Part shown: one piece after another, positions 38,893 through 48,892 of the stretch
Layout of the letters: every line of letters starts with the position of its first letter
Numbering within the stretch: the stretch's first letter is position 1
Assembly (NCBI GenBank): GCA_020723165.1
Contig: DYJK01000011.1
Location: 1-48,892 of the forward strand
DNA length: 48,892 bases
DNA from: Melioribacter roseus
GTDB lineage: Bacteria; Bacteroidota; Ignavibacteria; Ignavibacteriales; Melioribacteraceae
Reading direction: 5' to 3'
Made by a program: the position numbers and the translations under genes
The notes under the pieces: model-generated
What the model was told of the DNA's origin: nothing
Database searches by the model: none
The model's input: the letters and a program-made list of their open reading frames with translations, nothing else

Positions 38893-39717
38893 TCATTCTT
38901 TTATTCCGCTCATCGTAAAACCTTTTATAAAATATTTCTGGAAGAAGAAAAAGATCACGATAACCGGAAGCATCATTAATACTGATGCCGCCATTAAAAT
39001 TGCCCATTCCGGCTGCTGCTGACCGGCAAGTTGTCCTAAACCCAAGGCAAGAGTTCCTTTAGCTTTGTCCGATAAGTAAATCAATGGACCAAGAAAGTCA
39101 TTCCATACAAACATAAACGTCATTATTGCTACGGTAGCCAGTGCCGGTTTAGCTAAAGGCAGAACAATCTTCCAATAGATTTTAAACTCAGAACAACCGT
39201 CAATGCGTGCAGCATCTAAAAGACTTTTAGGAACAGACATAAAAAATTGCCGCATCAAAAAAATATTAAACGCACCGCCGCCTAGAAACATTGGGATAGT
39301 TAAAGGTTTGAAAGAATTAAGCCAGCCGATCTCTTTGAAGATTACAAATATTGGAATCATAGTAACTTGAATCGGCAGCATCATAGTTGCAACAACAACA
39401 TAAAACAGAGCATTTCTTCCCGTCCATTCTATACAACTGAAAGCATAACCTACAATAGAACTCGACAGTACAATGCCAATTACAGCAACAGAGGTTATAA
39501 AAACAGAATTTTGAAGATATTGCAAGAAAGGAATTTTATTAAACAGTTTTACATAATTATCAAGTTGAATTGCACTTGGCAAAAAATTATTTGAGAAAAC
39601 TTCAGCTTCGGGTTTTACAGAGGTAAGTATAATCCATAAAAATGGCAGAATAAAAAAGATGGCAATCATTGTCATCAGAATAAATATGAAATAATTATTT
39701 CTTTTTTGTCTTGTCAT
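38893..39717 (-). CDS. Sugar ABC transporter permease, MalG/UgpE type
   Basis: A 274-residue inner-membrane permease. I start it at ATG 39715-39717, which overlaps the upstream permease stop (ATGA), instead of ten codons further upstream. The first helix is FIFILMTMIAIFFILPFLWIILTSVKPEAEVF, typical of MalG-like proteins, and five or six helices follow. The ATPase-contact EAA loop is VPKSLLDAARIDGCSEFKIYWKIVLPLAKPALATV, with the conserved E/D-A-A-x3-G pattern as DAARIDG. It pairs with the MalF-type permease at 39714-40607 and the binding protein at 40604-41935 to form an importer. The ATPase is one of the two UgpC copies. The imported substrate is a carbohydrate of unknown identity. Confidence 0.93.
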   Translation of the reverse strand: MTRQKRNNYFIFILMTMIAIFFILPFLWIILTSVKPEAEVFSNNFLPSAIQLDNYVKLFNKIPFLQYLQNSVFITSVAVIGIVLSSSIVGYAFSCIEWTGRNALFYVVVATMMLPIQVTMIPIFVIFKEIGWLNSFKPLTIPMFLGGGAFNIFLMRQFFMSVPKSLLDAARIDGCSEFKIYWKIVLPLAKPALATVAIMTFMFVWNDFLGPLIYLSDKAKGTLALGLGQLAGQQQPEWAILMAASVLMMLPVIVIFFFFQKYFIKGFTMSGIKE

Positions 39718-40607
39718 TTCTCTACACCGCCGCTGTAAAAAACCCATTTCTTACTAACCTTGAACTGGATAAAAGTTATAATCCCGCTGATAATAAAAAG
39801 TAACCATGCAAGTGCGGAAGCATATCCCATATCAAAATCGTCGAATGCTTTATTATAGAGATATAGATTGTAAAATAATGTTGAATTGAGCGGCCCTCCC
39901 TTGGTCATAATGTAAGCTTCAACAAAAACCTGGAGAGAAAAAATCATCTCAAGTATAAACCAGAGAAATAGAACGGGCGAAATAAAAGGAACGGTAACAT
40001 TTTTAAATTTAGCCCACCATCCTCCACCGTCAATTTCGACAGCTTCGTAAAACTGTTTTGGCACATTTTGTATAGCCGCTAAAAATACCAGCATCCTTCC
40101 GCCTCCTAGAGACCAGATGCTCATCAATATAATAGATGGTTTTGACCAGTTTGGATCAATTAACCACAGCGGACCCTGGATTCCAAAAAATTGCAGTGTG
40201 CTATTAATTAATCCATATTCGGGATTAAGCAACCACATCCACAGCACGGATAATATTACACCGGAAATGATTGATGGGATAAAATAAATTGTCCGGAATA
40301 TTTTAACACCAGTTACAGCTTTACTTACAATAACTGCAAGGATCAGAGAACCAAGTATAACAAGAGGAGTTCTGACAAAAGTATAGAAAAGTGTATTCCA
40401 TATTGTTGTATAGAAGTATTGGTCCTCAAATAATAATTCCTTGTAATTTCTTAATCCGATATATTGGGGAATGCGCAGCACATCATACTGGCACAAGCTA
40501 TAATAGAATGAAACAATTATCGGGTACAAACCAAAAACGAGAAATCCAACAATCCACGGCGAAGCGAAAAGGTATCCCCAAAAATTATTTTTAGTTTTAA
40601 CTTTCAA
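39714..40607 (-). CDS. Sugar ABC transporter permease, MalF/UgpA type
   Basis: A 297-residue permease beginning MKVKTKNNFWGYLFASPWIVGFLVFGLYPIIVSFYYS, the usual start of UgpA-like proteins. Six helices are expected. The EAA loop is VPKQFYEAVEIDGGGWWAKFKNVTVPFISPVLF (EAVEIDGG). The start is a TTG in a TTGA overlap with the binding-protein stop (40604-40607), and its own stop overlaps the next permease by four bases. All three genes are therefore translationally coupled. The conserved late segment EAYIMTKGGPLNSTLFYNLYLYNKAF matches the family. It forms the channel with the MalG-type permease. Confidence 0.93.
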   Translation of the reverse strand: MKVKTKNNFWGYLFASPWIVGFLVFGLYPIIVSFYYSLCQYDVLRIPQYIGLRNYKELLFEDQYFYTTIWNTLFYTFVRTPLVILGSLILAVIVSKAVTGVKIFRTIYFIPSIISGVILSVLWMWLLNPEYGLINSTLQFFGIQGPLWLIDPNWSKPSIILMSIWSLGGGRMLVFLAAIQNVPKQFYEAVEIDGGGWWAKFKNVTVPFISPVLFLWFILEMIFSLQVFVEAYIMTKGGPLNSTLFYNLYLYNKAFDDFDMGYASALAWLLFIISGIITFIQFKVSKKWVFYSGGVEK

Positions 40608-41935
40608 TCAAAGAATCCTTCCGTTTTCATTTTAGAGTTGACATAATTGTCATAATCTATTGCCCTATCAAGAAAAGATTGAATAGTTTTTTCAGCTTGC
40701 TTCAATGCTTGTTTTGCCGTTGTTATATTTCTTAAAGATTGTTCCCTTGCAAAAGAGAATTCGCGCCAGAAGATATCATGAGCTAAAGGAATAATCGATT
40801 TTGTTCTTGTTTGTTCCATTTGTTCGGTAAAAATTTTCATGTACTTATTCATTGATAAAAATGCCGGGTCGTTGGCAGCAAAGCGGTTAACCGGGAACAA
40901 TGTTTCATCGCGACTCATACTTTCTTTTAATTGTGTTTCCCGGCTCACAACAAATTTCATAAACTCCCATGCTGCATTTTTGTTTTTTGCCCCTCTCGGA
41001 ATTGCAAGCCACCAGCTCCCGGCAGAAGAAACGGATGGTAAATCATCCATGGTAGGTATTAATGCAACGCCGTAATCAAGATCGGGTTTATACTTTTTTA
41101 TTTGATCAATAAAACTATTATCATTAACCAGCATTGCTACTTTTTCGGAAATGAAACCATGTTGATTTCCGTATCCAAATCCTCCCATGAATGCCGTAAC
41201 TTCCTCCACAGAATAAACATCAAAAAAATCATGTTCCCACTGGAATGCCTTTTCAATCAAAGGATCGTTAAGCTTAACTTTTGTTCCATCATCACTAATA
41301 AATTTAGCCCCTAGTTCAAACGCAATTATGAGCGGTGTTTCTATCGTACCATATTGCGGCACAAAACCCATTCTAACAATTTTTTTGTTTTCCCTTTTCA
41401 AAATTTTTCTTGAATATTCTTTAACTTCATCCCACGTTCTAGGTGGTTTCTCAGGATCGAGCCCGGCTTCCTCAAAAATTTTTTTATTATAGAACAATGA
41501 ATAGGCACCGGTATAAGCCGGAAGTGCATAAATGTTATTCCGGTATTTCATTTCACCCCATAGCGATGAAAAAAATTGATTTGTGTCTAATTTATCCTTG
41601 TAAATAATATCATCAAGGTTAATGAGTGCCTTACGAGCTGCCCATTTGGGAACCGGCGTTACAAGATTAACTACGTCGGGCGGGTTCTCGCTTAATATTG
41701 CTGTGAGTACTTTCTTTTCATGTTCATTCCATGGAATTGGAGTACATTCAACATGGATGCTATCTTGGGATTGATTGAATAACTCTACACATGGTGGGAT
41801 ATCATCTTTAACACCGGCAACAAACCAATAATTTACTACATTTTTTTCTTTCTCAACTTTACCTGGTAGTAATAGAATCAGAATTAAAGTCGATAGAGAA
41901 AGACCGATAACTATTTTTATTAATTTGTTTTTCAT
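40604..41935 (-). CDS. ABC transporter sugar-binding protein (family 1), membrane-anchored
   Basis: A 443-residue extracellular solute-binding protein. The N-terminus (KNKLIKIVIGLSLSTLILILLLPG) is hydrophobic but has neither lipobox cysteine nor clear signal peptidase site, so it may stay as a membrane anchor. Family landmarks are VNYWFVAGVKDDIPPCVELF, LSENPPDVVNLVTPVPKWAA, the ALPAYTGAYSLFYNKKIFEEAG block, PPRTWDEVKEYSRKI, and GSWWLAIPRGAKNKNAAWEF near residue 310. It binds a sugar in the periplasm and delivers it to the permeases just downstream. The start is ATG 41933-41935; a TTG one codon earlier is also possible. The regulator gene lies 29 bases upstream. Confidence 0.92.
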   Translation of the reverse strand: MKNKLIKIVIGLSLSTLILILLLPGKVEKEKNVVNYWFVAGVKDDIPPCVELFNQSQDSIHVECTPIPWNEHEKKVLTAILSENPPDVVNLVTPVPKWAARKALINLDDIIYKDKLDTNQFFSSLWGEMKYRNNIYALPAYTGAYSLFYNKKIFEEAGLDPEKPPRTWDEVKEYSRKILKRENKKIVRMGFVPQYGTIETPLIIAFELGAKFISDDGTKVKLNDPLIEKAFQWEHDFFDVYSVEEVTAFMGGFGYGNQHGFISEKVAMLVNDNSFIDQIKKYKPDLDYGVALIPTMDDLPSVSSAGSWWLAIPRGAKNKNAAWEFMKFVVSRETQLKESMSRDETLFPVNRFAANDPAFLSMNKYMKIFTEQMEQTRTKSIIPLAHDIFWREFSFAREQSLRNITTAKQALKQAEKTIQSFLDRAIDYDNYVNSKMKTEGFFD

Positions 41936-41964
41936 CAATTCGGGTTTACGGATGATGAATAATT

Positions 41965-42750: not shown

Positions 42751-42862
42751 GGCAAACCTAAATGCTTTTGAGATTACATGCAAGTAAATAATTGATAGAA
42801 AGGTTCAAAAATTTGTGGGGAGACACCACAGTATGACTTAGTGGTTGTAAAACAAGCTTTCT

Positions 42863-43717
42863 TCAGTTCTGTTTACTGTCACTTTTAAATTTTAACATCA
42901 ATTGAATCGCTTCAGTAAAGAGAGGTTTCCAAACTTTCCATGAATGATCGTCGTTGATGATTCTTAATTCTGCCGGTATGTATAATTGCTTGTACAGTTC
43001 TTGATAGAGCAAAACAGTTTGATACTCCACGTTATATTTTTTTCCTTCGGTATGATTCCAATCGTCATCGCCAGCACCGATAAAAAAGAAGACTTCATTT
43101 TTTTTCGATAAATATTTTTTTAACGAGTTGGGATAATTCAACTCATCCCATTTTTTTATATCGAACGGATTTCCGAAAACACCTTTTGTTCGCGCGCTCG
43201 ATCCTTCCGGCGGTTCTTCGTTATAAAGTGCCGGACTAAAAATCGCACATGCACAAAAAAGTTCCGAATAAACAAGTCCATATCTTAACGCGCCAAAGCC
43301 TCCCATCGAATAGCCGGCAATCATTCTGCCTCCCCGCGAAGCAACAGTGAAATACTTCCCGTCTATTTCCGGAATCAATTCATTAATAATTGCCGATTCA
43401 AATTTTTCCGTTGAGTTCACCCACCACCCTCTTTCGCCGGTTGGTGTAACAAGTATTACCGGTTCGATCTTCCCAAATTTTATAAGCGAATCGACTACGC
43501 TATAAATCGGCGACCATGCATTTTCATCATCACCGTTACCGTGTAAAAGATAAATCACCGGATATCGTTTGCCGGAAGTGTTGTAATCGTCGGGCAAATA
43601 AACTGAATATTTCCATTTGCGATTCAACTCTTTCGAATCGAGTTCGGATTTTACAATTGTCCCGCCGATTGTAATTGTTGACACAAACAATACAAACAAA
43701 ACAATTTTATTCAACAT
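42863..43717 (-). CDS. Secreted alpha/beta-hydrolase esterase (Esterase-D-like)
   Basis: A 284-residue exported esterase. I place the start at ATG 43715-43717 ([20 protein letters not shown], a signal peptide) because GGAG precedes it properly; upstream ATGs would put charged residues before the signal. This start lies 11 bases inside the ATPase gene's end. The nucleophile is Ser137 in GYSMGG, with the oxyanion segment [12 protein letters not shown] (57-68) and His258 in NDDHSWKVW; the acid is probably in FIGAGDDDW. It resembles tributyrin/acetyl-xylan esterases, so it may deacylate decorated glycans. It ends the run of ADP-ribosylglycohydrolase-like and ATPase genes; a GntR operator region follows. 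Confidence 0.87.
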
Positions 43718-44828
43718 GATTTTCTCCATTGTTGATAATTGCACTTCCCGATTCGGCATCAAAGAAATATAGTTTTTCGTGATTGAACTTCATTCTAATT
43801 TTCATGCCGGCATGAAGTTGATTGTTAACCGGCACTCTCGAAACCAATTGTTTTGTACCGACATTGAAATAAATAAAAATTTCGTTGCCGAGCATTTCGG
43901 CAACTTCAATTGTTATTTCAATAAAATTACAGACTGAATTTGCTTCATCAAATACCGAAACATCTTCCGGACGAATTCCCATCGTAATTTTTTTATCGAT
44001 GCAGTTCGATAAGTCATTACTTTCTTTTGTTAGTTTGATTCGAAGCGAATTACTTTCATCAACAAAAGTCAATCCGTCATCGTTAATTATTCTCCCTACT
44101 ATAAAATTCATGGATGGGTTACCAAGAAACCCGGCGACAAATTTATTTACCGGTGAGTTGTATAAATTGAGCGGAGAATCAAACTGCTGAACAATGCCTT
44201 TATTCATTACAGCAATTTTATCTCCCATCGTCATCGCTTCAACTTGATCGTGTGTTACATAAATTATTGTTGCACCAAGTTCACGGTGAAGTTTCGATAT
44301 TTCCGTCCGCATCTGCACTCGCAATTTTGCATCGAGATTGCTGAGCGGTTCATCGAACAAAAATAATTTCGGCCTTCTAACAATAGCTCTGCCGACAGCA
44401 ACACGCTGTCTTTGTCCGCCGGAAAGTTGTTTCGGTTTTCTACCCAGTAATTCTTCGATGCCGAGAATTCTTGCAGCGTCTTTTACTCTTCCCTCAATTT
44501 CGACTTTATCAAACTTTCTCAGCTTTAATCCGAATGCGAGATTTTCATAAACCGTCATGTGCGGGTAAAGGGCGTAATTCTGAAACACCATTGCAATGTC
44601 ACGATCCTTCGGTGGGATATCGTTTACTTTTCTATCGTCGATCAATAGTACGCCGCTCGATATTTCTTCGAGTCCGGCAACCATTCTTAACGTTGTAGAT
44701 TTTCCACAACCGGAAGGGCCCACGAGCACAATAAATTCTTTATCATGAATATGAAGATTCACATCATGCACAACATGATTATCCCCTTCATAAATTTTGT
44801 TGATGCTGATTAGTTTAACGTCCGCCAT
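43707..44828 (-). CDS. ugpC: Sugar ABC transporter ATPase, UgpC/MsmX/MalK type (copy 2)
   Basis: A 373-residue ATPase very close to copy 1 at 18385-19473. Walker A is GPSGCGKST, the Q-loop [20 protein letters not shown] is nearly identical, the signature is LSGGQRQR, Walker B is [16 protein letters not shown], and the switch is VTHD. The C-terminal regulatory domain ([24 protein letters not shown]) is more diverged. It follows the first ADP-ribosylglycohydrolase-like gene by 35 bases and lies about 3 kb upstream of the permease genes in the direction of transcription, with a regulator and its operator in between. It is the more likely partner of that permease pair, though either copy could serve. 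Confidence 0.94.
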
Positions 44829-44863: not shown

Positions 44864-45847
44864 TTAGGAAACAAGTTTTGCCAGTTCTTTTGCAATGTTG
44901 AAAACATCCAATCCTTTTGTGAACGGAAGACAAATACCAGCCGGGCGACGTGTCTTCTCTTTCCAAACTTCGGGAATATTTTTTGCGCCATTCAGTGCGC
45001 CGCTTATTGCGCCGACAATCGCACCGATTGTATCGGCATCGCGCCCAAAATTACCGCCATAAATTATTCCTTTTTTGAAATCACCTTTCGTTAACATCAA
45101 CACGGCAAATGCTTCAACCACTGCTTCGGGAACAGCGGCTTTGTAGGTTGACCACAATTGATGATGAAGCGGCATCCACGCTTCTTCGAGCGAATTGGAA
45201 TTGTTAATTATCTCGATTGCTTTGAGCATGTTGTATCTCAACCATGAATCTTCCGGCATAAATTTAAGAGCGGTGTCAATGATCTCATCGATTGCTGCAT
45301 CAACCATAGCAACTGAAATTGCGGCGGCAACTGATTTAGCGCCCCAAATGCCGTCGCGCCAATGACTCAATGAAGATTCAATTTCCGCAAGACGTGCCGC
45401 TTTTTCGGGATCGCCGGCGCAAACAATTCCAACCGGTGTAATTCTCATTGCGGCACCGTCGCTAATATTGTACGCGTTGAACTTGCCGGATTCGGGCGGC
45501 ATAATTCCGCGTTTGAGATTTGCCATTCCTTCGATTTCACTTGCACCGCCGCGTTTTAATTCTTTGTTTGGACCGACATATTTAATCCACGATTTCACGA
45601 CATCATCAGTTGTTAATTTTCCATCGCATTCGATCAAAGTTTGTGCGGTCAACAACGCAAAATCGGTATCGTCCGTGCTCGGCACTTCGCTTTCGTCAAA
45701 ATCCATTGTGATGCCGTACATAAAATGTTTTTCAGGTGTCCGAGCGGCATCGCCGAACGAATCGCCGATTGCATGACCGATCAGCGCGCCGTAAGCTTTG
45801 TCGATTAACAAATTCTCATCTTTTATTAAATCAATTTTGGATCTCAT
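44864..45847 (-). CDS. ADP-ribosylglycohydrolase-fold protein 1
   Basis: A 327-residue member of the ADP-ribosylglycohydrolase (DraG/ARH) family, all-helical and cytoplasmic. It starts at ATG 45845-45847 behind AAGGAG. The two di-metal motifs are intact: STDDTDFAL (TDDTD, residues 58-62) and GGNFGRDADTIGAIVGA (GRDADT, 268-273). Other family blocks are AYGALIGHAIGDSFGDA near 18-33 and SHWRDGIWGAKSVAAAIS near 161-178. DraG removes ADP-ribose from nitrogenase reductase, but no nitrogen-fixation gene or ADP-ribosyltransferase is nearby. The neighbours are a sugar ABC ATPase and three similar proteins, so I infer hydrolysis of an imported glycoside. Closest relatives here are proteins 3 and 4. Confidence 0.92.
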   Translation of the reverse strand: MRSKIDLIKDENLLIDKAYGALIGHAIGDSFGDAARTPEKHFMYGITMDFDESEVPSTDDTDFALLTAQTLIECDGKLTTDDVVKSWIKYVGPNKELKRGGASEIEGMANLKRGIMPPESGKFNAYNISDGAAMRITPVGIVCAGDPEKAARLAEIESSLSHWRDGIWGAKSVAAAISVAMVDAAIDEIIDTALKFMPEDSWLRYNMLKAIEIINNSNSLEEAWMPLHHQLWSTYKAAVPEAVVEAFAVLMLTKGDFKKGIIYGGNFGRDADTIGAIVGAISGALNGAKNIPEVWKEKTRRPAGICLPFTKGLDVFNIAKELAKLVS

Positions 45848-45859
45848 TTTTTCTCCTTG

Positions 45860-47188
45860 CTAAAATTTTTTGATCGCCAGTCCGCAAGTGCGTTTGGCAA
45901 GATTTGAGAAACCCGAGTTGTCGAATCCCTTCATGCTGCTTCTTATTTTATCTTTTAAAGGTGCAATCCATTTCGATGGAAGTTTGTCGAAGCCGTTCAT
46001 TGTTCCGATAATCGAACCGACTGTTGCGCCGCTGCTGTCCGTATCTAAACCGCCCATTACTGTGGCGCAGATTGATTTCTCAAGATCTCCTTTGCCGTAA
46101 GTAAGTGCAGCCGCTATCAATGCAATGTTGTTTACCGAGTGAACCCAAAAATATTTTTCGTACTCTTTGAGAAGAACATCAAGTATGGCATCCCACGATG
46201 ATTTTTTTTTTACCGTTGAGATTCCGAATTTTGCCGCTTGTGCTGTTCTGCTTTCATCGGGAATATAATTGATCGCTAAAGTCAAAGCTTCTTCGGGACT
46301 CTTCGTAAAAAATGAAATTGCGACAACCGCAGCGATAAACATTTCAGCATAAACACCATCTCTTGTATGACTGAGTGAGGCATCTTTGAAAGCAAGTTGA
46401 ACAGCTTGCAAAGGATTGCCGGGAGAAACCCAGCCCCAAATATCTGCACGTATCATTGCACCGATCCATTCGCGGTAAGGATTACGATAGATTGGAACGT
46501 TTTGCAAATCAATCAATTGCAAAAGATTGTTGTATGCGGCACGCTCCGCAGTAAATGTTGAAAGCACCGGAAGAATGCTAAGCCACGTTTCTGCAACACT
46601 GCCGGTTGTAAATTCCTTCCCATACTTTTCAAGAATATGAAGATTGAGCATCGCGTAATTCATGTCGTCGTCTTCTGTCATGCACAAAATATTTTCGCGC
46701 AAACTTTCTTTGCCTTCGTGACGGTTCCATGGATATTTTTTTAGAATTTCTTCGGGCATTCCTTCAGCAGTTATATAATTATCGAGCGGATACGAATTAT
46801 TCGAAGAAAGAATTTCCTTTATCACTTCGCGCCGATATTTCTCGATCGGCTTGCCGAGCAAACATCCGGCAGCGCGGCCGTTCCATCCGCCGAGAATTTT
46901 ATCATAGAGTTGATCGAACGAAAGATCAATTTTTGGTTTTGCTTCTTTCTTTTTTAATTCATCTAAAAAATTTTGAATCACAGTGTTGTTGATATTCTTT
47001 TTAAAACTTTCCAATCGTTCTAAAAATTTTTCTGTTTCGCTCCTAATTTCAGTTTGATCGGTGCAATTTTTCTTAACCGATTCCCAATCTCTTTTCAGCT
47101 CGCTTGTTTCTATTCCTTCGTCCTCAAGCTGGACGAGTTCAAATTCAACAAGCTGTTCAGGGCGAATCCATGAAATATCTACTTTCAT
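45860..47188 (-). CDS. ADP-ribosylglycohydrolase-fold protein 2, with N-terminal extension
   Basis: A 442-residue member. About 90 residues precede the catalytic core (ISWIRPEQLVEFELVQLEDE, then charged helices). They are absent from the other three copies. The core starts FDQLYDKILGGWNGRAAGCL, the subclass with a GxxxGRAxGCxLGxPxE start. Metal motifs are TEDDDMNYA (171-179) and GGLDTDSSGATVGSI (379-393), both with their aspartates. It differs clearly from proteins 1, 3 and 4, so it probably acts on another bond or moiety. It lies 12 bases upstream of protein 1 and 6 bases downstream of protein 3 in the direction of transcription, so it is certainly co-transcribed. It is cytoplasmic. Confidence 0.92.
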   Translation of the reverse strand: MKVDISWIRPEQLVEFELVQLEDEGIETSELKRDWESVKKNCTDQTEIRSETEKFLERLESFKKNINNTVIQNFLDELKKKEAKPKIDLSFDQLYDKILGGWNGRAAGCLLGKPIEKYRREVIKEILSSNNSYPLDNYITAEGMPEEILKKYPWNRHEGKESLRENILCMTEDDDMNYAMLNLHILEKYGKEFTTGSVAETWLSILPVLSTFTAERAAYNNLLQLIDLQNVPIYRNPYREWIGAMIRADIWGWVSPGNPLQAVQLAFKDASLSHTRDGVYAEMFIAAVVAISFFTKSPEEALTLAINYIPDESRTAQAAKFGISTVKKKSSWDAILDVLLKEYEKYFWVHSVNNIALIAAALTYGKGDLEKSICATVMGGLDTDSSGATVGSIIGTMNGFDKLPSKWIAPLKDKIRSSMKGFDNSGFSNLAKRTCGLAIKKF

Positions 47189-47194
47189 ATTCTT

Positions 47195-48238
47195 TTATTT
47201 GTCTAGATTTGTTTCTGCAATTTGATTTAGCTGTTCTGCAATTGTGTTTAAATTTTTTCCCTTCAAAGAGGGAATACAAATACCGTTCAGCCGTGTAAAA
47301 TTTTTTACCCATTCTTCTTCGAAAGGTTCATTGTTCATCGTGCCGCAAAGCGCACCAACAAATGCCGGAACGGAATCCGCAGTTTTGGCGAGTGACGCCG
47401 CAGCGGTAATTCCAACAGAAATATTTCCGCCGGATAAAACAAACAAAGCCAGCGTAAGCGCAAGATTATCCGGCGCAGATGAACCGTAATTGTAAGTGTG
47501 ATCTATTATTTCATCGTGCAAAACCGGCAGTGCGCTGAAAACTGATTTATACTTTTTAGAAATCTTTAGCGCTTCGTTTATTTTCAAGTAGAGCCAACTG
47601 TTTGTTGGAATCGGTTGAAGAGCGGCAGAAATAATTTTTTCAATTTCTGTTTCTACGCAAGCTGTACTAATTGCCGCCGCAATTGACTGCGCCGCCCAAA
47701 TTCCATCGAGCGAATTTGTGATTGACGCTTCCAAACCGGCGCACTCAACCGCTTTATCGATATCGCCGGCATATATCGCACCGATAGGAATTGCACGCAC
47801 CATCGAGCTATCATCGAAATAATGCGGATTGTCATTACCGGTTACGGGAGGCATCATATTCTTTTTAAAATTATTTAACGCCGCAATCACGGCAACACTT
47901 CCTTTAATTTGCGATTCGTCTTCTGCGAGTTCCTTCCATGCTTTTATGTGTGAATCAAAATTATAAACACCTTCATTTTGAATAAGAATCTGTGAAATAA
48001 ATGCCGCCCACTCGCTGTCATCAGTCGGAGAAATCTTAAACGATTCTGTCGGAATGTTCAATGAAAAAGGAAGATTGGGTTTTAAAATTCCAACAGATTC
48101 CGATTCAACATCGATTTCTCTTCTCAGTCGTCTCGTCCAAAATGGAAAGTTGTAACTTTTGTGATAGAGTGCTTGCCAGCTCAACGCATCGCCGGCGGCC
48201 AGACCGAGCAAAGCATTTTTTGTTCTTTGATAATTCAT
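47195..48238 (-). CDS. ADP-ribosylglycohydrolase-fold protein 3, with altered metal motif
   Basis: A 347-residue member starting MNYQRTKNALLGLAAGDALSW. The first metal motif is kept in part as SPTDDSEWAAF (TDDSE, 72-76, for TDDTD). The second is SLAKTADSVPAFVGAL (AKTADS, 284-289), where proteins 1 and 4 have GRDADT and GRDTDT. The first aspartate of the pair is replaced by threonine and the glycine and arginine are changed, so one metal position is damaged. NSLDGIWAAQSIAAAIS (175-191) and the general fold are conserved. The reading frame is intact, so this looks like a functional change (binding, regulatory or altered catalysis), not decay. Confidence 0.88.
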   Translation of the reverse strand: MNYQRTKNALLGLAAGDALSWQALYHKSYNFPFWTRRLRREIDVESESVGILKPNLPFSLNIPTESFKISPTDDSEWAAFISQILIQNEGVYNFDSHIKAWKELAEDESQIKGSVAVIAALNNFKKNMMPPVTGNDNPHYFDDSSMVRAIPIGAIYAGDIDKAVECAGLEASITNSLDGIWAAQSIAAAISTACVETEIEKIISAALQPIPTNSWLYLKINEALKISKKYKSVFSALPVLHDEIIDHTYNYGSSAPDNLALTLALFVLSGGNISVGITAAASLAKTADSVPAFVGALCGTMNNEPFEEEWVKNFTRLNGICIPSLKGKNLNTIAEQLNQIAETNLDK

Positions 48239-48352
48239 TTCAATTTATCCGTGATACATATTAATCATAAATCCATTTGTGGTCGAACAAGCTAATTCAT
48301 CAACCGGAATTCTTTTATTTACCCTTGCGACCTTTGCGTTTAACTTTGCGTG

Positions 48353-48407
48353 CTTTGCGTGAACCCCTTTCCTTTCTTTCACGCAAAGGCGCTAAGGATA
48401 CGCTAAG
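48353..48407. repeat. ACGCAAAG-type hairpin repeat running into a gene end
   Basis: CTTTGCGTGAA (48353-48363) and TTCACGCAAAG (48378-48388) are exact inverted arms around a 14-base loop. The flanks repeat the unit (CCTTTGCGT, ACTTTGCGTG before; GCGCTAAGG, ACGCTAAGT after). This is the pattern of the dispersed 'ACGCAAAGGCGCTAAG' intergenic repeats seen in many genomes. Its right part overlaps the last codons of the gene at 48392, supplying its stop. The rest of the gap (48239-48352) is plain AT-rich sequence. Confidence 0.65.
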
Positions 48408-48892
48408 TCTGCAAGTTTGCTTGCTATCGAAACCAGATCAACATCTTTAACTATTTTGATGCAATTACCATTTACGGTTTCTACTTTTCCGCTCCACTTT
48501 TGTGGAATCATATCGTAACCGATTTTTGCACCGAGAATTGCACCGGCAATTGCGGCAATCGTATCGGTATCTCTTCCTACATTAACTCCGCCGAGCACGG
48601 CATCCGAAAAATTTCCTTTCGAAGCGGCGATCAATCCAAAACTTAACCCAACAGCTTCGGGTGCTAAATCAGCCCAATGATAATAACTGCACGGTATTTC
48701 ATCGTACAACTTCACAAGTGCATCTTCCATGTTTAATGCATTCGAACCAATCTCAATTCCTTTGCTGATTGCCCGATAACTCCAAGAATCTTTCGGCACC
48801 GAATTGAGTGCCGCATCAAAAATTTTTTCGAGTGAACAATCAATCATCGCCATAGAAATTGCGGAAGCAACTGCCATCGCAGAATAAATTCC
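48392..48892 (-). CDS. ADP-ribosylglycohydrolase-fold protein 4 (partial, runs off the right edge)
   Basis: The last 166 codons of a fourth family member. The frame is open to the window end, where it reads GIYSAMAVASAISMAMIDCS, matching GIWGAKSVAAAISVAMVDAA of protein 1. The second metal motif is intact: GGVNVGRDTDTIAAIAGAI. The C-terminus (NGNCIKIVKDVDLVSIASKL) is the usual family end, followed by ADLAYP, whose last codons lie in the repeat at 48353-48407. The first metal motif lies outside the window. An internal ATG at 48875-48877 is not a real start. It is the most upstream visible gene of the tandem set. Confidence 0.9.
   Translation of the reverse strand, partial: GIYSAMAVASAISMAMIDCSLEKIFDAALNSVPKDSWSYRAISKGIEIGSNALNMEDALVKLYDEIPCSYYHWADLAPEAVGLSFGLIAASKGNFSDAVLGGVNVGRDTDTIAAIAGAILGAKIGYDMIPQKWSGKVETVNGNCIKIVKDVDLVSIASKLADLAYP

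Follow-up and report, generated by a model that had tools for sequence, protein, structure and literature searches.

A conserved row of four ARH-fold genes, one a pseudoenzyme, in a putative ribose or riboside locus of Melioribacter roseus

To our knowledge, proteins of the ADP-ribosylglycohydrolase (ARH) family have been described almost exclusively as enzymes that erase ADP-ribosylation, and annotation routinely gives bacterial copies that role. The locus described here, a row of four ARH genes in the company of genes for sugar uptake, raises the question of what such a set would act upon, and whether all four members are enzymes at all.

The ARH row and its conservation

The window, i.e., the whole 48,892-nucleotide stretch of DNA that was analyzed, carries at its right end four adjoining minus-strand PF03747 genes, designated A to D in order of transcription (Table 1). 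All four score above the Pfam gathering cut-off (26.2 bits), with values of 75.2 to 175.7 bits. Since the window is the entire contig C100, ARH_A is cut by the contig end and not by the choice of window. ARH_D is followed on its 3′ side by the UgpC and esterase genes, a hairpin, and then a GntR-UTRA regulator, a sugar-binding protein (SBP) and two permeases. The hairpin may mark where transcription of the array ends; terminator-like hairpins in this region were no commoner than in shuffled sequence. Judged by eye, the array proteins have no apparent signal peptide.

Table 1. Coordinates of the array and adjoining features in the window
Feature	Position	Strand	Evidence
ARH_A, C-terminal half (contig end)	48392..48892	-	PF03747 75.2 bits; GRDTDT metal motif present
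ARH_B, conserved pseudo-ARH	47195..48238	-	PF03747 115.6 bits; predicted ARH fold
ARH_C, extra N-terminal helical part	45860..47188	-	PF03747 132.9 bits; TEDDD, LDTDS present
ARH_D, best-conserved member	44864..45847	-	PF03747 175.7 bits; TDDT, GRDADT present
UgpC/MalK-type ATPase of ABC sugar importer	43707..44828	-	subfamily model 487.6 bits vs cut-off 432
Putative esterase (PF00756)	42863..43762	-	in relative G133 likewise adjoins UgpC
Terminator-like hairpin 3′ of esterase	42814..42830	-	consensus match only

Searches with ARH_B and ARH_C in the window's order, its phylum and genome contigs found the row in the same order, as far as contigs reach, in 15 genomes including the window's own; a sixteenth (G045) has a partial row. 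Carriers with names are MAGs labeled Ignavibacteria, Bacteroidetes, Melioribacteraceae and, in one case, candidate division KSB1. In a tree of 46 proteins, from which the window's ARH_A was left out as too short, A, B, C and D each form one fully supported clade, and the window groups with G133 within B, C and D. Four monophyletic groups in a fixed order indicate that the four genes predate the split of these lineages and travel as a block. The initial annotation, which had reported four consecutive ARH-fold genes in one operon with a UgpC-type ATPase and an esterase, was sound in its description of the row.

The array is rare. Within the order, 8 of 164 genomes carry it and, in a phylum draw, 3 of 395; it was not found in one other genome of the same genus. 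In a 296-genome phylum draw, the three cassette genomes list four ARH genes each, while no cassette-free genome lists at least three separate ARH genes within 6 kb. Within this draw, such crowding is thus confined to cassette genomes, and the four-gene row exceeds chance.

A fifth ARH gene occurs elsewhere in the window's own genome (contig C54, L071:8682-10534), beside an ECF CbiQ-like transporter component. It also adjoins a GntR-UTRA regulator and a CehA/McbA-type metallohydrolase, and the locus may perhaps serve vitamin-type riboside uptake.

Metal sites of the four proteins

In solved ARHs, two metals are held by a Thr-Asp-Asp motif and a D-x-D-T motif, and in human ARH3 the Asp314 of D314-x-D316-T317 holds one Mg; with the substitution D314A, one Mg is lost, ADP-ribose is bound 44-fold more weakly and activity is lost (PMC8141533, PMC5727137). 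Both motifs are kept in A, C and D, all orthologues of which retain D-x-D. In the window's incomplete ARH_A, only the C-terminal motif is visible; its full-length orthologues keep SDDT and have a Glu at the flap position. ARH_C has an additional ~90–95 N-terminal residues that are helical in the predicted model. Judged by their motifs, A, C and D qualify as catalytic-type ARHs with a putatively metal-competent two-metal site. ARH_D lacks the usual flap Glu that A and C have, which counts against the ribosidase reading developed below.

Predicted models of B and C share the fold of ARH3, DraG and MJ1187 (PDB 6g1p, 2woc, 1t5j), with Z values of about 27–32. Against ARH3, the values are 31.5 for ARH_B (pLDDT 83.6) and 31.9 for ARH_C (pLDDT 83.5), and structure alignments of the two models to known ARHs show 12–22% identity. 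The fold of A and D is assigned by sequence alone, MJ1187 being the best sequence match of ARH_D. Alignment to ARH3 is weak at the adenine-binding residues. The best array score is 53.7 bits against the DraG equivalog model TIGR02662 (cut-off 337.05) and 48.6 bits against the Tri1 ADP-ribosylarginine hydrolase model NF041672 (cut-off 490).

The fold searches with ARH_B and ARH_C also showed the ARH fold, with Z values of 19.5–30.8 overall, in motor subunits of the chloroplast FtsHi type (8xks, 8xqw) and in an assembly factor of the trypanosome mitoribosome (6sga).

ARH_B departs from the metal-site pattern of A, C and D. The first Asp of its D-x-D, equivalent to Asp314 of ARH3, is missing in 15 of 15 orthologues, where T, S, N, C or A is found, and was lost in none of 30 other phylum ARHs. 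The second Asp is often gone too, and several orthologues have lost the N-terminal metal motif as well. Strong conservation is seen at residues peculiar to this protein, including WTRRxRRE and NPHYFDD. Five pairs give dN/dS of 0.09–0.20, indicative of purifying selection, with most dS values near saturation and the least saturated pair at 0.20. By its residues, then, ARH_B is a conserved, putatively non-catalytic ARH, whose metal site was lost yet whose gene was kept. Most simply, it would be an inactive partner that stabilizes, positions or regulates an active paralogue.

A decaying pseudogene was considered as an alternative for ARH_B and rejected, given the full-length frames and the low dN/dS in all five pairs. 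An exception is the copy in L081 (9001-9989), which has a frameshift, whether real or an assembly error.

Importer, ribokinase and proposed function

Two permeases and an SBP lie directly upstream of ARH_A in 12 of the 12 loci that reach that far, and are 49–96% identical to the copies in relative G044. The recurrent link to sugar transporters that had been proposed for the row is thus seen in every testable neighborhood. Within 1.5 kb of 30 of the best-scoring phylum ARHs, no CUT1 importer or kinase was found, bar one generic ABC ATPase, so the importer link is specific to the array cassette. A TonB/SusC-type gene is also present in the locus. Its usual SusD place is taken by a protein of 603–665 residues, two scanned copies of which match no Pfam family, and no SusD was identified.

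The window's own SBP and permeases (38893-41938) are another matter. They are only 22–29% identical to the relatives' array-side importer and belong to a different unit, headed by the GntR gene, with a hairpin between that unit and the array. Beside this unit is a large locus (1048-38719) with two GH38 genes, GH92, GH89 (NAGLU), two DUF4185 genes and a second UgpC. The same stretch holds an MGH1-like glycoside hydrolase, a ROK kinase and T9SS-tailed proteins, and looks like a mannose-rich glycan locus. The SBP, the two permeases and the UTRA regulator of the window probably serve this neighboring mannan- or glycoprotein-type glycan locus as its importer. Hence the sugar-importer context claimed in the initial annotation stands through the array-side genes of relatives, but the genes cited for it probably belong next door. 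A search of the window's assembly with the SBP alone gave no array-type importer, and the one that belongs to the array has apparently fallen into a gap of the assembly. For the beta-lactamase-like gene that relatives have upstream, the assembly gave weak paralogues only.

The second recurring partner is ribokinase. In the contiguous relatives G043, G044, G054 and G382, a ribokinase gene is located upstream in the array locus on the same strand, and it passes curated cut-offs (TIGR02152, 357 vs 299.65; PRK11142, 343.5 vs 341). The sole true ribokinase of the window's genome is on contig C27, which ends in the order LacI - SusC - 603-type - FadL-type - esterase - ribokinase - LVIVD (cut); the last six genes are 44–61% identical to the upstream half of the relatives' locus. 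As the simplest reading, we infer that C27 and C100 would be joined across a gap.

Within the order, ribokinase is found in 8 of 8 array genomes versus 21 of 156 others (Fisher p 4e-7, the genomes not being independent). It was not found in the array genomes G524 (small) and G525 (KSB1-labeled), and ribokinase-like kinases can accept other sugars; both points count against the ribose reading. ARH and ribokinase occur together in 13 genomes of the 296-genome phylum draw, and the two lie no more than 15 kb apart in six of these, where 0.12 would be expected (p ~7e-10, relatedness of genomes ignored). Without the array genomes, the figure is 4 of 10 (p ~7e-7, relatedness again ignored). These four non-array cases each combine ribokinase with a single ARH of about 470–520 residues that has an apparent signal peptide. 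In three of them a sugar permease adjoins the ribokinase, and L144 also has SusC and SusD; the four loci resemble the Rus ribose locus of Bacteroides thetaiotaomicron (PMC12596196).

A separate observation concerns G117 (L067:1-8823), where a relative of ARH_C adjoins a true ribokinase, with GH65, a HAD phosphatase and UgpC nearby. This is an independent ARH-ribokinase pairing.

Solved ARHs require both metals and the cis-diol of ribose (PMC7050489). Taken with the ribokinase, this chemistry argues for ribofuranoside hydrolysis in the cytoplasm, and since a true ribokinase is part of the locus, the likely product can be named as ribose. The row is therefore read, with moderate confidence, as the cytoplasmic ribosidase module (A, C and D) of an ABC-fed ribose or riboside locus, with B as a non-catalytic partner. 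A ribose-containing compound would be captured by secreted proteins and, at the outer membrane, by a TonB-type receptor, and then carried into the cytoplasm by the CUT1-type ABC importer whose genes adjoin the array. There, A, C and D would hydrolyze the ribofuranosidic bond, their two-metal site gripping the cis 2-OH and 3-OH of ribose, and the ribokinase of the same locus would convert the freed ribose to ribose-5-phosphate. The three active ARHs may each serve different linkages or chain positions, and ARH_B may be an inactive ARH-fold subunit that serves one of the active paralogues. The data show the array with its gene order, the importer upstream of it in relatives, the linkage to ribokinase, and for ARH_B the lost metal ligand and purifying selection; catalysis, an alpha linkage, the substrate and complex formation are what we infer within the ribose model. 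The initial annotation had suggested a set of cytoplasmic glycosidases or nucleosidases for an imported substrate; recruitment as glycosidases is still the best reading, but with the metal site of ARH_B lost, three members are metal-competent.

A bolder version, offered tentatively, is that A-B-C-D form a hetero-oligomeric riboside-degrading complex with B as an obligate scaffold or allosteric subunit. Its substrate would be an environmental glycan that contains ribose and is degraded by a pathway not yet described, and the aglycone would feed citrate-lyase-type chemistry in some lineages.

Among the alternatives to the ribosidase reading, salvage of nucleotides or nucleosides is unlikely but survives best. 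The importer would take up ADP-ribose, NAD-like compounds or alpha-nucleosides, and the ARHs would free a base or nucleotide with ribose as a by-product. Such a role would suit the characterized ARHs reviewed, all of which act on ADP-ribose derivatives (PMC7050489), and the E. coli yegTUV genes, which encode an ARH, a kinase and a putative nucleoside symporter (PMC10819704). However, no nucleotide-processing or base-salvage gene is among the recurring array genes scanned, the array importer is CUT1/MalFG-like, and the presence of TonB-type and secreted proteins speaks for a polymer or glycan.

Rather improbable is a second alternative, in which the true substrate is a different cis-diol furanoside, or the ARHs work at the aglycone end, and the ribokinase is no more than a neighbor. 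The window's neighboring locus is of mannan type, which would suit this idea. The 3′ side of ARH_D also bears on it: some genomes have UgpC there, and seven others a fused CitD-CitE together with CitF, namely L073 (3064-5845), L074, L076, L077, L079, L081 and L108. The citrate lyase match in L077 reaches 508 bits for TIGR01584 (cut-off 501.45), and in L073, the KSB1 locus, the citrate lyase genes overlap ARH_D by 4 bases. These genes suggest that a second moiety is processed, hint at a substrate that yields a citrate-like acid, and are unaccounted for by the ribose model. Against the alternative stand the phylum-wide proximity of ARH and ribokinase, which includes unrelated rus-like loci, and the presence of ribokinase in every array genome of the order.

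Reversal of protein ADP-ribosylation, toxin immunity or phage defense is very improbable: family membership is all that speaks for it, together with the precedent of Tri1 and the Listeria ART-ARH pair as immunity proteins with an ARH fold, whereas no ADP-ribosyltransferase (as already noted for the window) or toxin gene is among the annotated neighbors, the array scores lie far below the DraG and Tri1 cut-offs, and the array is tied fixedly to sugar import and ribokinase.

The co-inherited four-member ARH module, tied to sugar import and ribokinase, and the phylum-wide proximity of ARH and ribokinase suggest that some ARH genes are ribose-scavenging glycosidases. As a pseudoenzyme that has been kept, ARH_B gives a bacterial model in which non-catalytic ARH proteins can be studied, and the locus could reveal an overlooked environmental ribose polymer or riboside.

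Comparison with known systems

In the literature searched, no text was found that ties ARH to ribofuranosidase gene clusters or pseudoenzymes, nor did it yield a row of four ARHs that includes a fixed pseudoenzyme and is paired with an ABC importer. An ARH beside ribokinase or a similar kinase, however, has precedents in rus-like loci, yegTUVW and a staphylococcal triplet. The array is consequently a variant of a known theme rather than a wholly undescribed system.

Some rus loci may include an ARH-type gene, a lead that only L141-L144 support here. In L141, L143 and L144, the single ARH is next to or near the ribokinase. Rus itself (BT2803-2809) has a ribokinase, a sugar permease and SusC/SusD-type uptake. 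The array differs from them in having four ARHs without apparent signal peptides, one of them the pseudoenzyme, and an ABC importer in place of a permease of the Ureide_permease or Sugar_transport families. Its likeness to B. thetaiotaomicron Rus lies in the ribokinase and in a TonB/SusC-type gene.

E. coli yegTUVW resembles the array locus in combining a transporter, an ARH (YegU) and a PfkB-type kinase with a GntR-type regulator, but has one ARH and an MFS transporter, and its function is putative (PMC10819704). In Staphylococcus epidermidis, SERP2216-2218 encode an adjoining triplet of ARH, permease and ribokinase (PMC3637587, PMC3321955); here too there is one ARH, the permease is of cytosine/purine type, and the triplet is carried on SCC elements. 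ARH3, DraG and MJ1187 share the fold, whereas the array has no ADP-ribosylation context. Finally, vertebrate ARH2 (ADPRHL1) is, like ARH_B, a suspected inactive ARH that has been kept (PMC7050489, PMC7390403). ARH2, however, is a eukaryotic heart protein, while ARH_B is bacterial and always lies between paralogues with intact metal motifs.
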